In this document: piece by piece, positions 10,042 through 14,719 of the stretch
Position numbering within the stretch: position 1 is the first letter of the stretch
Layout: each line of letters begins with the position of its first letter
Assembly: GCA_013151015.1 (NCBI GenBank)
Contig: JAADJA010000029.1
Location: 1-33,588 of the forward strand
Origin: Chlorobiota bacterium
GTDB lineage: Bacteria; Bacteroidota; Bacteroidia; Bacteroidales; JAADJA01
DNA: 33,588 nucleotides
Direction of reading: 5' to 3'
Notes under the pieces: model-generated
What the model saw: only the letters and a program-made list of their open reading frames with translations
What the model was told of the DNA's origin: nothing
The model's database searches: none
Position numbers and translations under genes: made by a program

Positions 10042-11427
10042 ATGAAATACCTTTTTACATTATTTGCACTTATATCATTGTCAACTAACATTTTTGCACA
10101 AACAGAAGTGAGTGGTCAGCAATCCGGGACATGGATTGCCGATAGTTCCCCCTATTTGGTCGTGGGTGATATCATTGTTGCAACGGGCCAAACTTTAAAC
10201 ATTGAAGCAGGGGTTGAGGTTAACTTTCAGGGACATTATAAGCTTACCGTTAATGGTGACTTGCAAGCCATCGGTACTGAATCCGATAGTGTTTTCTTTA
10301 CCACGGATAACCAGGCAACGGGCTGGGGTGGAATCAGGTTCGAGAATTCCTCGCAAATAAACACTTTATCGTATTGTAGGATTGAATTTGGGAAAACATC
10401 GGGCGAATACCCTGATAACCATGGTGGGGGAATAGCGTTGATAGGTGCGGACGCAGTTGTGTCAAATTGTGTATTTGCCAACAATGAAGCAATTGCCGAT
10501 GACAGTGGAATGGGTGGTGCCGTATATGCTAATGGCACAGGGAGTCCTTCAGGGCCTTTGACATTCTTTACAGATTGTAAGTTCCTGGGAAACCATGCCT
10601 ATGGTGAAGGCGGGGCAATAAAATTCACCGGGGATATGAACACTGAGATAAAGTCATGCGAATTTATTGGAAATGATTGCAATTATGGCGGAGGGGCTAT
10701 TTCTTGCTACTCCGTATTCGATACAAAAATTATTTATTGCCTGTTTGCTGACAATTACACCATGTATTCAAACGGAGGTGCGGTAAATGCACTTGGCTTT
10801 GGCAATACTCTTTTCTTTGAGAATTGCACTATGTCTGGCAACTCGGCAGTTACGGGCGATGGAGGTGCCGTTGACCTTGCCTATGCCGATGTTGATTTCG
10901 TGAACTGTATTGTTTTTGATAATCCGGGGATGTACAGTGATGATATTTATCTGGATTTTGGTGGTTATGCCGAAATAAACTATTGCAACCTTACGATGCC
11001 CGATGGCGCAACCGGAAGCAATAACATAAACGAAAATCCGCAGTTTCTGGATGCAGGAAATTTTGATTTTCACCTTGACGGGAATTCCCCTTGTATTGAT
11101 GCCGGAACCGATATCGGATACGAATATTTTGGCGAAGCCCCTGATATGGGTTGCTATGAATATGGAATGACGACCGGTTCGATCGAATCTGGGGCAAATA
11201 TTTTTTCAGTTTACCCAAACCCGACAAGTGGGATTGTCTATTTCGAATTGGGAAACGATAAAATACAAAGGGTATCTATTTCTGACTTGACTGGAAAAAT
11301 TGTTGTTGAAGCAATTGTTCCCTATAAAAACCAGGGCATTGATTTATCAGGACTGGAAAAGGGAACCTATATAATTTTGTTTAAAAAGGAGAAGGGGTCA
11401 ATCTCGAAAAAAATAGTGAAAGAGTAA
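10042..11427 (+). CDS. Secreted right-handed beta-helix protein with T9SS type A sorting domain
   Basis: A 461-residue exported protein. The N-terminus MKYLFTLFALISLSTNIFAQ is a signal peptide ending near residue 20. The centre (about 60-330) has repeated short strands with GG turns, such as GGGIALIGADAVVSNCVFANNEA and GGAVDLAYADVDFVNCIVFDN, typical of parallel beta-helix proteins. It is followed by the stretch SPCIDAGTDIGYEYFGEAPDMGCYEYG, which is characteristic of the choice-of-anchor Q region. The last 80 residues start with VYPNPTSGIVYFELG and end with KGTYIILFKKEKGSISKKIVKE, a type A sorting signal for the type IX secretion system. It is thus likely surface-attached or secreted. No catalytic residues were recognised, so polysaccharide binding or cleavage remains a guess. 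Confidence 0.85.
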   Translation: MKYLFTLFALISLSTNIFAQTEVSGQQSGTWIADSSPYLVVGDIIVATGQTLNIEAGVEVNFQGHYKLTVNGDLQAIGTESDSVFFTTDNQATGWGGIRFENSSQINTLSYCRIEFGKTSGEYPDNHGGGIALIGADAVVSNCVFANNEAIADDSGMGGAVYANGTGSPSGPLTFFTDCKFLGNHAYGEGGAIKFTGDMNTEIKSCEFIGNDCNYGGGAISCYSVFDTKIIYCLFADNYTMYSNGGAVNALGFGNTLFFENCTMSGNSAVTGDGGAVDLAYADVDFVNCIVFDNPGMYSDDIYLDFGGYAEINYCNLTMPDGATGSNNINENPQFLDAGNFDFHLDGNSPCIDAGTDIGYEYFGEAPDMGCYEYGMTTGSIESGANIFSVYPNPTSGIVYFELGNDKIQRVSISDLTGKIVVEAIVPYKNQGIDLSGLEKGTYIILFKKEKGSISKKIVKE

Positions 11428-11472
11428 TTCTTTTTTTGAAAAATTTCCTTGCAGGTTAATTTAAAAAATGTG

Positions 11473-11480
11473 TACTTTTG
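11473..11480 (+). promoter_or_regulatory. Predicted -7 box for tRNA-His
   Basis: TACTTTTG followed by CAG matches TAnnTTTG and ends 14 bases before the tRNA. A partial -33 element (CTTG, with TTG at 11449-11451) is 21 bases upstream. Confidence 0.5.
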
Positions 11481-11494
11481 CAGCCGTTTTAAAT

Positions 11495-11549
<55 letters not shown>

Positions 11550-11569
<20 letters not shown>

Positions 11570-11672
11570 CAAAAAAGGTCATCGTCTCGGTGGCCTTTTT
11601 TAGTAAATGGCCGATTATGCAATATTATGTTTATGTCCTGCAATCCGAAAGTTCGGGGCTATATTACAAAGG
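11550..11672. repeat. Direct repeat copy A: tRNA-His 3' end, terminator and GIY-YIG gene start
   Basis: 123 bases matching 11999-12121 with one visible difference (ATGTCC against ATATCC). The repeat starts exactly at the first base of the tRNA T-loop (T54), runs through the acceptor 3' strand, the hairpin terminator and the first 18 or so codons of the GIY-YIG gene, and ends at the bases AAAGG. Copy spacing is 449 bases. Confidence 0.92.
11571..11601 (+). terminator. Intrinsic terminator after tRNA-His
   Basis: AAAAAAGGTCATCG and CGGTGGCCTTTTTT pair over 14 positions, with two G-U wobbles, around a TCT loop and end in a T6 run. The same structure recurs at 12020-12050 and, with small changes, at 12117-12144. 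A related hairpin follows coaE. Confidence 0.85.
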
Positions 11673-11919
11673 CCAGACGAACAATGTTTCCCTTAGGCTG
11701 GAGAAACACAACAAGGGCTATGTGAAATCCACAAAAGCCTACCGTCCATGGAAACCGGTGTTCTTTACGACAGTTGAAACCCGGTCCGAAGCGGTGAAAC
11801 TGGAACGCAAGCTCAAAAACCTGAAAAGCAGGACAAGGCTCGGGGAATGGATTGACAAGAACAAGGGAATAAACAAGTGTCCAAAAGCACGGGGGGCCGT
11901 GGGTCCCGAAAAACAATAA
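11617..11919 (+). CDS. GIY-YIG nuclease family protein, tRNA-linked
   Basis: Small single-domain GIY-YIG nuclease of 100 residues. The GIY part reads YYVYVLQS, the YIG part reads YYKGQT, the conserved Arg lies in VSLRLEKHN, and the catalytic Glu is in SEAVKLERKLK. I take the start at MQYYVYVL (11617), because the ORF-track starts at 11528/11530 run back through the tRNA and its terminator and are artefacts. The family (UvrC-like small GIY-YIG proteins) cuts DNA; the role here is unproven. The gene sits directly after tRNA-His inside a 449-base repeated unit whose ends carry the tRNA 3' end, which suggests a mobile or homing element that uses the nuclease. A second copy downstream is truncated after about 19 codons. 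Confidence 0.85.
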   Translation: MQYYVYVLQSESSGLYYKGQTNNVSLRLEKHNKGYVKSTKAYRPWKPVFFTTVETRSEAVKLERKLKNLKSRTRLGEWIDKNKGINKCPKARGAVGPEKQ

Positions 11920-11950
11920 TCCCCAGCGGGCTGGGATTATATGTTTTTCG
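11916..11950 (+). terminator. Hairpin terminator of the GIY-YIG gene
   Basis: ATAATCCCCAGC (11916-11927) pairs with GCTGGGATTAT (11930-11940) with one bulged C, and ATGTTTTT follows. The stem overlaps the stop codon of the nuclease gene. A 12-base palindrome CGAGGATCCTCG (11949-11960) comes directly after. Confidence 0.6.
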
Positions 11951-11956
11951 AGGATC

Positions 11957-11997
11957 CTCGAAATACCATCGAAATTGGAAATTTCGGGTATTTCGGG
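11957..11997. repeat. Compound hairpin just before the second tRNA 3'-end copy
   Basis: CGAAATACC (11959-11967) pairs with GGTATTTCG (11987-11995); inside, CGAAATT (11970-11976) pairs with AATTTCG (11980-11986) around a GGA loop. Only two bases (AT) separate the arms on the left, none on the right. The structure ends two to four bases before the repeat copy that starts at 11999, so it could mark the right boundary of the element. Confidence 0.65.
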
Positions 11998-11998
11998 A

Positions 11999-12121
11999 TT
12001 CAAATCCCATCATGCACCCAAAAAAGGTCATCGTCTCGGTGGCCTTTTTTAGTAAATGGCCGATTATGCAATATTATGTTTATATCCTGCAATCCGAAAG
12101 TTCGGGGCTATATTACAAAGG
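11999..12121. repeat. Direct repeat copy B: tRNA-His 3' end, terminator and truncated GIY-YIG start
   Basis: Matches copy A (11550-11672) at 122 of 123 positions. It carries the 20-base tRNA 3' end from the T-loop to C73, but no tRNA 5' part, so it is not a tRNA gene. After the shared bases AAAGG it continues into another version of the terminator rather than the nuclease gene. Confidence 0.92.
12020..12050 (+). terminator. Second copy of the tRNA-His terminator
   Basis: Identical to the hairpin at 11571-11601: AAAAAAGGTCATCG against CGGTGGCCTTTTTT. Part of direct repeat copy B. Confidence 0.75.
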
Positions 12122-12173
12122 TCATCGGCTCGATGGCCTTTTTTCGTTAAATAACCCCCTTGCACATAAATGA
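12066..12173 (+). pseudogene. Truncated second copy of the GIY-YIG gene
   Basis: From the ATG at 12066 the reading MQYYVYILQSESSGLYYKG repeats the first 19 residues of the intact nuclease gene upstream, with one changed residue (V to I). It then switches to HRLDGLFSLNNPLAHK, which is the translated third terminator and following noncoding sequence. The catalytic Arg and Glu are missing, so it is a remnant. The junction lies at the bases ACAAAGG, which also occur in the intact copy and resemble the A-rich start of the terminator. Confidence 0.85.
12117..12144 (+). terminator. Third terminator copy closing the tRNA-His repeat region
   Basis: AAAGGTCATCG (12117-12127) pairs with CGATGGCCTTT (12131-12141) around GCT, followed by more T. 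It differs from the two upstream copies in the loop and may be the original terminator of the tRNA gene before the element arrived. Confidence 0.75.
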
Positions 12174-12259
12174 ACCAAGGTAAAGGATATATTTTTGGAA
12201 TTTTGCGGGGCAATAATAATCTTTCCTTTGGGGTTATGTAAATTGTTTGATGCTTTTAT

Positions 12260-12267
12260 TACTTTTG
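12260..12267 (+). promoter_or_regulatory. Predicted -7 box for ftsK
   Basis: TACTTTTG followed by CAG fits TAnnTTTG, 40 bases before the TTG start of ftsK. No convincing -33 element was found. Confidence 0.5.
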
Positions 12268-12307
12268 CAGCACAACTTTTTAAATTGAAATTTGAACACA
12301 TAATACA

Positions 12308-14719
12308 TTGAAAAAGAAAAATAACCGTAATAAAAAATCAAATACCGGAACCAGGAAAAACGGGAATTCCAAATCAAAGAAACAAGCTTTTCTCTTTTTG
12401 AAAAATGAAAAATTCCAAAAGATTTTGGGATTGTTTCTAATATTATTCTCTTTCATTCTTGCCATTTCTTTGGTTTCCTGGATTTTTACCTGGTGGGTGG
12501 ACGATGCATCAAGAAGTGCCGGCGCACGCAATTGGATCGGGAATTTTGGCAGGGCCGTTTCCAGTTTCTTTGTCGATAATTTATTTGGCTTGAGTTCCAT
12601 CTTGTTTGCCTTTCTGTTTTTTATTTATGGTGTCAGGCTTTTGTTGAAGAAAAAAATCTTCCCTTTATGGAAGGCCACCCGCATTTCAATTCTTGCCATG
12701 GCCTGGGTTTCTGTTTCACTGGCCTATGTTTTTGGCGATGGTTCAGATGTTGCCGGGATATTTGGTTTGCAAACTTCTGCATGGCTTAAGCAATCCCTTG
12801 GACCCATTGGCGAAGGTTTGTTGTTGCTGTTTTTATTCTTGAGCTTTTTGATAATTTCCTATGACTTTTCAATCCATTTTCCTTCTTTCTCGTTTTTTGG
12901 GAAAAAGAAAATCAATCAGGATAAGAAAAAGGGAAATAATTCAAACCAGGGAGAAGACATATACAATACCGCCGAATATGCAGTTGAAGAAGAAGAGGAG
13001 GTTCCGGATGGGAACTACCTTGAAATGGAGAAAACAACCGAAGTGGATTTGACGGATACGGGCAATCTTGTGATCGAGGAACAAGTGAAAAAAGAAGTGC
13101 CTGAAGTTGCCGACCTGGAGCTTACCATCGAACAACCTGTTGAAGAAGAAAAAACGGAAGTTGAAGAAAACCCTGTTCGCAACCCAGACCACAAAACAAT
13201 CGACGAACCTTACGACCCTACACTCGATTTGCCGGATTATCAGCTTCCGACCATCGATTTATTGGAGAGTTACGGGACGGGTAAAATCTCTGTCCAAAAG
13301 GAGGAATTGGAAAGGAACAAAAACCGTATTGTGGAAACCCTTGGGAATTATTCCATAAAAATATCCAAGATCAAAGCGACAATCGGGCCAACCATTACCC
13401 TCTACGAGATAATCCCGGCGCCCGGTGTCCGAATCTCAAAAATAAAAAACCTTGAAGATGATATTGCCCTGAGCCTTTCAGCACTTGGGATCCGTATAAT
13501 AGCACCTATTCCGGGAAAGGGGACAATTGGTATCGAGGTTCCCAACGAATCACCTGATATAGTTTCGATGAAATCGGTACTGGCTTCGGATAAATTTCAG
13601 AATACAAAATATGAACTTCCTTTCGGGATTGGCAAAACCATTTCCAATGAAAGCTATGTTGCCGATCTTACCAAGATGCCGCACCTTTTAATGGCCGGGG
13701 CCACAGGCCAGGGGAAATCGGTGGGGCTGAACGCGGTGATTACCTCTTTGCTTTACCGGAAACACCCTGCAGAACTGAAGTTTGTTATGGTTGACCCAAA
13801 AAAAGTTGAGTTGACCCTTTATTCAAAAATCGAAAGGCATTTCCTGGCAAAACTGCCCGATTCGGAAGAAGCGATAATTACCGATACCCGTAAGGTAGTG
13901 CGTACGCTCAATTCCCTGAGCATCGAAATGGATAATCGTTACGAATTGTTGAAGGATGCACAGGTAAGGAATATCAAGGAATACAATGTGAAATTCAAAA
14001 GCAGGAAGCTGAGCCCCTTGCACGGGCATCGGTTTTTGCCTTACCTGGTTCTCGTCATTGATGAATTTGCCGACCTGATCATGACCGCGGGAAAGGAAAT
14101 CGAAGTCCCCATTACCCGTTTGGCACAATTGGCAAGGGCGGTTGGTATCCATCTGATTATTGCCACGCAACGCCCATCGGTGAATATCATTACGGGCTCC
14201 ATAAAGGCCAATTTTCCCGCTAGGATAGCTTTCCGGGTTATATCAAAAATCGATTCGCGTACAATTCTGGATTCGGGCGGTGCCGACCAGCTAATTGGCA
14301 GGGGGGACATGTTGCTTTCCACGGGCAGCGATTTGATAAGGCTGCAATGTGCCTTTGTAGATACGCCGGAAATTGACAGGATCACCGATTTCATTGGATC
14401 GCAACGGGCTTATCCCGACACCTTCCATTTACCTGAATATGCCGATGAAGAAAAGGAAGTAATTAGCGAATTTGACCCCAACGAAAGGGATGAACTCTTC
14501 GAAGATGCGGCCCTTATCATTGTGCAGACCCAACAGGGATCTACTTCCCTTTTGCAACGGAAATTGAAACTGGGCTATAACCGCGCCGGAAGGATTATAG
14601 ACCAACTTGAAGCTGCCGGCATCGTTGGGCCATTTGAAGGGAGCAAGGCGCGTGAAGTAAGGGTTGCCAATGAAATGGCTTTGGAACAGTTTTTGAAAGA
14701 CCTCAACAACCCACAATAG
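12308..14719 (+). CDS. ftsK: DNA translocase FtsK/SpoIIIE
   Basis: Membrane-anchored motor of 803 residues that pumps chromosomal DNA through the closing division septum. A basic N-terminus is followed by four hydrophobic helices (about residues 35-195), an acidic low-complexity linker (about 210-300), then the motor: the Walker A motif GATGQGKS near 464-471, LVLVIDEFADLIM (Walker B), LARAVGIHLIIATQRPSVNIITG, and GRGDMLLSTG. The C-terminal winged helix (gamma domain) LLQRKLKLGYNRAGRIIDQLEAAGIVGP would read orientation sequences. Length is typical for Bacteroidetes FtsK. The start is TTG at 12308, with no in-frame ATG upstream after the preceding stop. lolA follows after 25 bases, a common arrangement in this phylum, so the pair is probably one operon. 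Confidence 0.95.
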   Translation: MKKKNNRNKKSNTGTRKNGNSKSKKQAFLFLKNEKFQKILGLFLILFSFILAISLVSWIFTWWVDDASRSAGARNWIGNFGRAVSSFFVDNLFGLSSILFAFLFFIYGVRLLLKKKIFPLWKATRISILAMAWVSVSLAYVFGDGSDVAGIFGLQTSAWLKQSLGPIGEGLLLLFLFLSFLIISYDFSIHFPSFSFFGKKKINQDKKKGNNSNQGEDIYNTAEYAVEEEEEVPDGNYLEMEKTTEVDLTDTGNLVIEEQVKKEVPEVADLELTIEQPVEEEKTEVEENPVRNPDHKTIDEPYDPTLDLPDYQLPTIDLLESYGTGKISVQKEELERNKNRIVETLGNYSIKISKIKATIGPTITLYEIIPAPGVRISKIKNLEDDIALSLSALGIRIIAPIPGKGTIGIEVPNESPDIVSMKSVLASDKFQNTKYELPFGIGKTISNESYVADLTKMPHLLMAGATGQGKSVGLNAVITSLLYRKHPAELKFVMVDPKKVELTLYSKIERHFLAKLPDSEEAIITDTRKVVRTLNSLSIEMDNRYELLKDAQVRNIKEYNVKFKSRKLSPLHGHRFLPYLVLVIDEFADLIMTAGKEIEVPITRLAQLARAVGIHLIIATQRPSVNIITGSIKANFPARIAFRVISKIDSRTILDSGGADQLIGRGDMLLSTGSDLIRLQCAFVDTPEIDRITDFIGSQRAYPDTFHLPEYADEEKEVISEFDPNERDELFEDAALIIVQTQQGSTSLLQRKLKLGYNRAGRIIDQLEAAGIVGPFEGSKAREVRVANEMALEQFLKDLNNPQ

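Follow-up and report, generated by a model that had tools for sequence, protein, structure and literature searches.

The window, that is, the whole stretch of 33,588 nucleotides that was analyzed, contains an intact tRNA-His gene (anticodon gtg; 11496-11570) identified by ARAGORN and by the Rfam model RF00005 (66.2 bits). It is followed, in order and on the same forward strand, by an element-type terminator (11574-11607; family D2 of the repeat finder), an open reading frame (ORF) of 100 amino acids for a UPF0213/Slx1-like GIY-YIG nuclease (11617-11919), a piece of tRNA-His, a second terminator identical to the first (12023-12056), the first 19 codons of a second nuclease copy (12066-12122), and a third, diverged terminator that is 88% identical (12117-12150). 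This agrees with the first-pass annotation, which had described an intact nuclease gene, a second copy cut after 19 codons, three successive terminators, and a unit with the nuclease as its only gene. The third terminator is probably the original terminator of tRNA-His. The truncated nuclease copy is joined to it at the motif ACAAAGG, and the join looks like a microhomology deletion.

Repeat comparison also bore out the claimed duplication: a second copy of the 449-bp unit is present 3' of tRNA-His, and its 123-nt direct repeats (11550-11672 and 11999-12121) differ at a single position, 11635. According to the repeat finder, the direct repeats stretch to 129 nt at 98% identity, with a spacing of 449. 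A near-identical 123-nt repeat at this spacing is not due to chance. The repeats had been called att-like; the unit has no integrase, and what places the repeat edge at the T-loop is a 95-nt double hairpin (11904-11998) that interrupts the second tRNA copy at this point. A tyrosine-recombinase integrative element was ruled out, as the GIY-YIG ORF is the only one in the unit and there is no att core; a group I intron was also ruled out, as Rfam finds only the tRNA in 11000-12600 and this tRNA is uninterrupted.

The repeat had further been described as including the tRNA 3' end. The 3' end is indeed there, with tRNA-His resuming after the hairpin from the T-loop through to the end of the tRNA (11999-12019, by repeat comparison), but the hairpin and a remnant on its other side had been missed. 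The insert splits the second copy at the 5' edge of the T-loop, and directly 5' of it lie 12 tRNA-like nucleotides, GGGGGCCGTGGG (11892-11903), which differ by one mismatch from their counterpart GGGGGTCGTGGG in the variable/T-arm region of the intact gene (11538-11549). Hairpin 1 spans approximately 11904-11954 and hairpin 2 approximately 11955-11998, with the pattern TCCCGA...TTCGAGGA/TCCTCGAA...TTCGGGA. Folded as single-stranded DNA, the double hairpin has a z score of -7.8, and 0 of 200 shuffles folded as well. The last codons of the nuclease ORF cross the tRNA remnant into the hairpin, and the stop codon lies within it. A GTAG or CGTC tag is absent from the window insert.

The window protein belongs to the GIY-YIG superfamily (Pfam PF01541, 1.5e-15). 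The residues Y6, Y17, G19, R27, H31, and E63, covering the catalytic Tyr, Gly, Arg, His, and Glu, are kept in at least 97 of 99 tRNA-linked members. By sequence, the closest solved structures are UPF0213 (1zg2, 1.8e-16) and next SLX1 (~3e-8), a likeness at the domain level that makes plausible, rather than demonstrates, recognition of DNA shape. Unlike the structure-specific endonuclease SLX1, the 100-aa protein consists of a GIY-YIG domain alone, with no RING/PHD domain and no SLX4 partner, and its family is tRNA-linked and multi-copy; it also lacks an obvious domain for sequence-specific DNA binding, in which it departs from classical GIY-YIG homing enzymes.

Recurrence beside tRNA genes and other RNA genes

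The window protein has 11 matches in its own draft genome (237 contigs), where five contigs besides the window repeat the theme. Four of them, at tRNA-Asp (C221), tRNA-Arg(cct) (C1), tRNA-Pro (C73), and tRNA-Arg(acg) (C122), each carry a GIY-YIG gene, an intact tRNA, and a tRNA copy split by a palindrome, as judged by eye. At the fifth, tRNA-Glu (L002 on C163), a 5' copy is broken by a double hairpin of the same type, TCCCGAA...GAGGATCCTC...TTCGGGA, and there is no nuclease. The sequence TTCGAGGATCCTCGAA is confined in this genome to the tRNA-His copy of the window and this tRNA-Glu copy, with at most one mismatch allowed.

The first-pass annotation had suggested searching other genomes for the gene beside tRNA genes with duplicated ends, and this arrangement was found both in relatives and phylum-wide. 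In 41 relatives, a tRNA and tRNA pieces lie beside the nuclease at most loci examined. A profile search over 297 Bacteroidota genomes detected the family in 166 of them, with up to 17 copies per genome, after which 60 further regions were taken and linkage was counted over 90 high-scoring loci, a few of which overlap or represent the same site. Of these 90 loci, 83 have a tRNA or a fragment of one within 500 bp. This figure applies to the clade rather than to small GIY-YIG genes at large, since most of the sequences behind the profile were themselves tRNA-linked and the best matches were counted; palindromes were looked for one by one in only part of the fragments counted. The nuclease gene and the tRNA lie on the same strand in 92 of 92 cases, at a median distance of 49 bp. 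The expectation for a random gene is approximately 1%, an estimate from about 45 tRNAs in 4 Mb rather than a measurement, and in a comparison set of ftsK loci in relatives, ARAGORN found a tRNA at 0 of 19.

Two layouts are found. The 3'-restoring layout opens with the intact tRNA and its terminator, and the nuclease and then a broken copy with the tRNA 3' end follow (the window, Asp, Ala, Pro, Gly, and others). In the 5'-restoring layout, a broken copy with the promoter and the 5' part of the tRNA comes first, then the nuclease, and the intact tRNA last (Arg and some Ser, Ala, and Pro loci). The earlier proposal that the element restores the tRNA 3' end thus holds insofar as an intact tRNA is kept, and is too narrow in that some copies restore the 5' part with its promoter. 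Broken copies flank the nuclease on both sides at L016, L123, L131, and L156. Tandem arrays reach five nuclease copies, and truncated extra copies occur at 25 of 117 loci. As in mobile ORFs, an endonuclease ORF is accompanied by a duplicated piece of the host gene, and the host gene is intact.

A single paralogue, used to search beyond the Bacteroidota sample, yielded ten loci. Palindrome-bearing broken tRNA copies lie beside the nuclease in metagenome-assembled genomes named Elusimicrobia (Pro), Chlorobiota (Asn), Kaiserbacteria (Patescibacteria; Ala), Ignavibacteriae (Asp), Neomarinimicrobiota (Leu), and two Bacteroidota (Val), and the remaining three merely have a tRNA nearby; the names are those of the records, and some classifications put Chlorobiota and Ignavibacteria in Bacteroidota sensu lato. 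For a phage or plasmid origin, tblastn with the Arg-linked paralogue of the source genome gave no match in either collection.

Some members lie away from tRNAs. At L065, L067, and L096, the GIY-YIG gene occupies the loop of a long inverted repeat within the P3 region of an RNase P RNA gene, and strands of P1 and P2 flank the insert on both sides. At L008 (contig C209 of the source genome) and L032, the 3' end of tmRNA is followed directly by two to three GIY-YIG copies in tandem, with GC-rich palindromes between them. Separately, at L043, L077, L078, and L112, CCCCGT/ACGGGG inverted repeats or a duplicated gene start flank the GIY-YIG gene, which by eye apparently interrupts or abuts protein genes.

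Palindromes in the spare tRNA copies

A systematic pass over the spare copies found 78 distinct inserts in 51 loci. This and the following counts exceed the number of events, since inserts in related lineages or in tandem copies do not count as independent. In 44 of the 78, the ends are complementary over at least 5 nt, with 4.8 expected from shuffles, and the longest stem beats 95% of shuffles in 43 of the 78; each test alone is passed by slightly more than half of the inserts, and the others are unproven as palindromes by these measures. Clean insertions fall in the D, anticodon, variable, or T loops in 43 of 52 cases (about 23 expected), and in a stem or junction in 9 (29.1 expected). Many other inserts take the place of the anticodon arm or of the 5' half of an arm. 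Among fourteen inserts of 16 nt, the outer six pairs are all kept and five pairs show changes on both sides, a result favored by the choice of these inserts by hand as one class of length and form. The hairpin sequences vary from locus to locus except for short ends.

Hairpin-bearing tRNA copies without a nuclease occur at L002, L026, and L029. At L131 and L104, three loops of the spare tRNA-Ser copies (anticodon, variable, and T) each carry a hairpin. In the source genome, short palindromes of the TCCCGAAGCTTCGGGA type are also found off tRNAs, so this hairpin style is not exclusive to tRNA copies. Such interspersed palindromes were seen, among others, at L175, L179, and L181, and some of them look like terminators.

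Nuclease lineages and occupied or empty sites

A tree of 113 nuclease proteins was built from 82 columns, and many of its forks are weak. The tRNA isotype changes 32 times on this tree, compared with 69.6 after shuffling (0 of 200 shuffles as low). The host family changes 53 times (70.4 shuffled) and the host genome 91 times (91.0 shuffled). From the isotype and genome counts it follows that nuclease lineages are tied to tRNA isotype and that paralogues of one genome are not sisters. The Arg and Pro lineages range over several host families. The Gly clade comes entirely from one family, and vertical inheritance could account for part of the isotype signal. Ten members without a tRNA-linked label form one group (98% SH-aLRT).

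Empty sites, suggested earlier as a further check, were found at a syntenic tRNA-Gly locus. In one family, with the gene that precedes tRNA-Gly as the anchor of the comparison, nine genomes are occupied, with the nuclease after tRNA-Gly, and ten are empty, with a single tRNA and one terminator; two further genomes have no tRNA in the stretch compared. The same genera contain both states. Occupied and empty orthologous alleles, as known for homing elements and mobile ORFs, are therefore present at this locus; as they come from different species, they do not fix the exact ends of the insertion. When an empty site for the His copy was sought via its ftsK neighbors, the relatives had no tRNA-His at that place.

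Proposed mechanism and relation to known systems

We consider it reasonably probable that the family represents a minimal, tRNA-targeting, homing-type mobile element, whose mobility and cleavage we infer. The tRNA-His locus of the window would be such an element, tandemly duplicated and with its second nuclease copy truncated. The unit consists of one small Slx1/UPF0213-type GIY-YIG gene plus a partial extra copy of the target tRNA gene, with a terminator in the 3'-restoring form or a promoter in the 5'-restoring form. The nuclease would cleave a tRNA gene within an arm, and repair against the element-bearing copy would insert the unit. The carried piece would rebuild an intact tRNA, and the displaced piece would stay as a dispensable remnant that may since have acquired hairpins. 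The observed part of this homing-type reading consists of the recurrence at tRNAs, the same-strand layout, the kept intact tRNA, the palindromes at arm loops, the isotype lineages, the occupied and empty sites, and the conserved catalytic residues. Against it, hairpins in several loops of one remnant, as at L131 and L104, are unexplained by a single insertion scar, and it gives no account of why the resident intact tRNA escapes cutting.

Those hairpins could also be placed at the center. It is doubtful, although worth weighing, that the palindromes are the primary mobile entity and that a structure-specific GIY-YIG nuclease inserts hairpin DNA into the hairpin loops of structured-RNA genes, as a GIY-YIG counterpart of REP/RAYT or IS200/IS605 in which gene-bearing copies would be autonomous and gene-less hairpins their miniatures. 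The preference of clean inserts for tRNA loops (43 of 52 against about 23) and the replacement of an arm or its 5' half by a palindrome in others point this way, as do the complementary insert ends (44 of 78 against 4.8), the pairing kept with double changes in the 16-nt inserts, the nuclease-less hairpin copies at L002, L026, and L029, the GIY-YIG genes within the P3-region hairpin of the RNase P RNA gene, and the standing of structure-specific SLX1 nucleases as the next nearest solved structures after UPF0213. However, the hairpins are unalike between loci beyond their short ends, and dispensable spare copies may simply tolerate inserts. It is possible, and we offer this tentatively, that a minimal Slx1-like GIY-YIG nuclease spreads hairpins, some carrying its gene and others not, to loops in tRNA, tmRNA, and RNase P RNA genes, choosing its targets by nucleic-acid shape while the host RNA gene is rebuilt from the carried piece; this would constitute an undescribed class of bacterial mobile DNA.

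Alternatively, the tRNA-linked gene might be inherited vertically without any mobility, with tandem duplication enlarging the locus and leaving spare tRNA pieces as debris; this could account for the tandem arrays, the truncated extras at 25 of 117 loci, the isotype lineages, and the single-family Gly clade. We regard this reading as unlikely, given that sister species are split between presence and absence at one tRNA-Gly locus, that the Arg and Pro lineages cross host families, that same-genome paralogues are not sisters, and that palindromes sit at loops, where random debris would not place them. Where small nuclease genes lie close to tRNAs in variable loci, they can have a defensive role, and the nuclease might attack invading nucleic acid, with the broken tRNAs as decoys. 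Such a defense or toxin module linked to tRNA loci is very improbable: PADLOC hits are marginal at best (best E 0.0013) with the window protein unmatched, there is no partner gene, and the unit is minimal. An assembly artifact is barely credible even for the window, whose genome is a draft of 237 contigs, and is refuted for the family by the same architecture in G329, G275, G227, G225, and G068, which are assembled in one or few contigs.

The closest described systems are the mobile ORFs (mORFs) of fungal mitochondria and the double-hairpin elements (PMC3630166, PMC2800124). In mORFs, for example at Allomyces atp6 and Glomus atp6/atp9/cox2/nad3, a free-standing endonuclease ORF (GIY-YIG for atp9) supplies a replacement gene end, and the native end is displaced downstream (PMC3630166). 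The present family shares the endonuclease ORF and the replacement gene end. mORFs differ in being mitochondrial, in targeting protein genes, and in having no hairpin reported there in the displaced piece, whereas the present family is bacterial, lies mainly at tRNA genes, restores the 5' or 3' end, and has a smaller Slx1/UPF0213-type nuclease. Double-hairpin or repetitive hairpin-forming elements of mitochondria comprise one or two adjacent hairpins in RNA genes and spacers, are suggested to be mobile, and in Allomyces lack flanking duplications (PMC2800124 and studies to which it refers). Here, too, adjacent hairpins lie in the loops of RNA genes without target duplication; the difference is that these are bacterial, in spare tRNA copies tied to a GIY-YIG gene, whereas no linked nuclease gene is named for the mitochondrial elements in that source.

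REP/REPIN-RAYT and IS200/IS605 are alike in combining palindromes, often paired, with a single small nuclease gene, but theirs is a HUH (Y1) transposase and the window nuclease is GIY-YIG, so membership was rejected; the present family is also tRNA-centered. Like tRNA-integrating genomic islands, it shows a duplicated tRNA 3' end and a restored tRNA, whereas the window unit is 0.45 kb, without an integrase or att core, and some family copies restore the 5' end. No description of a bacterial tRNA-GIY-YIG or RNase P-GIY-YIG link was found in a search mostly confined to the open-licence literature, and an earlier account in subscription journals may exist. The recurrent tRNA-tethered arrangement in Bacteroidota and several other lineages is apparently undescribed.

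Small GIY-YIG genes, which are common in Bacteroidota and unexplained beyond their domain name, would in many cases gain a context as selfish units tied to tRNA isotypes. The phenomena of mitochondrial mobile ORFs and double hairpins would be carried over to bacterial chromosomes, and broken tRNA copies near tRNA genes would be accounted for. A testable model would also become available for the route by which palindromic elements reach loops in structured RNAs, the essential RNase P RNA among them.

Two minor observations concern individual tRNA loci. At L028 and L042 (G018, contig C3), two GIY-YIG genes are surrounded by an array of approximately eight tRNA-like copies, whose sequences are related to tRNA-Val and whose anticodon loops are odd. 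At L002 (C163), a CRISPR-like array with the repeat GTTGAATATCCTTTTGAAATTACATCAAACCACAAC starts directly after the tRNA-Glu terminator, from about position 1701.
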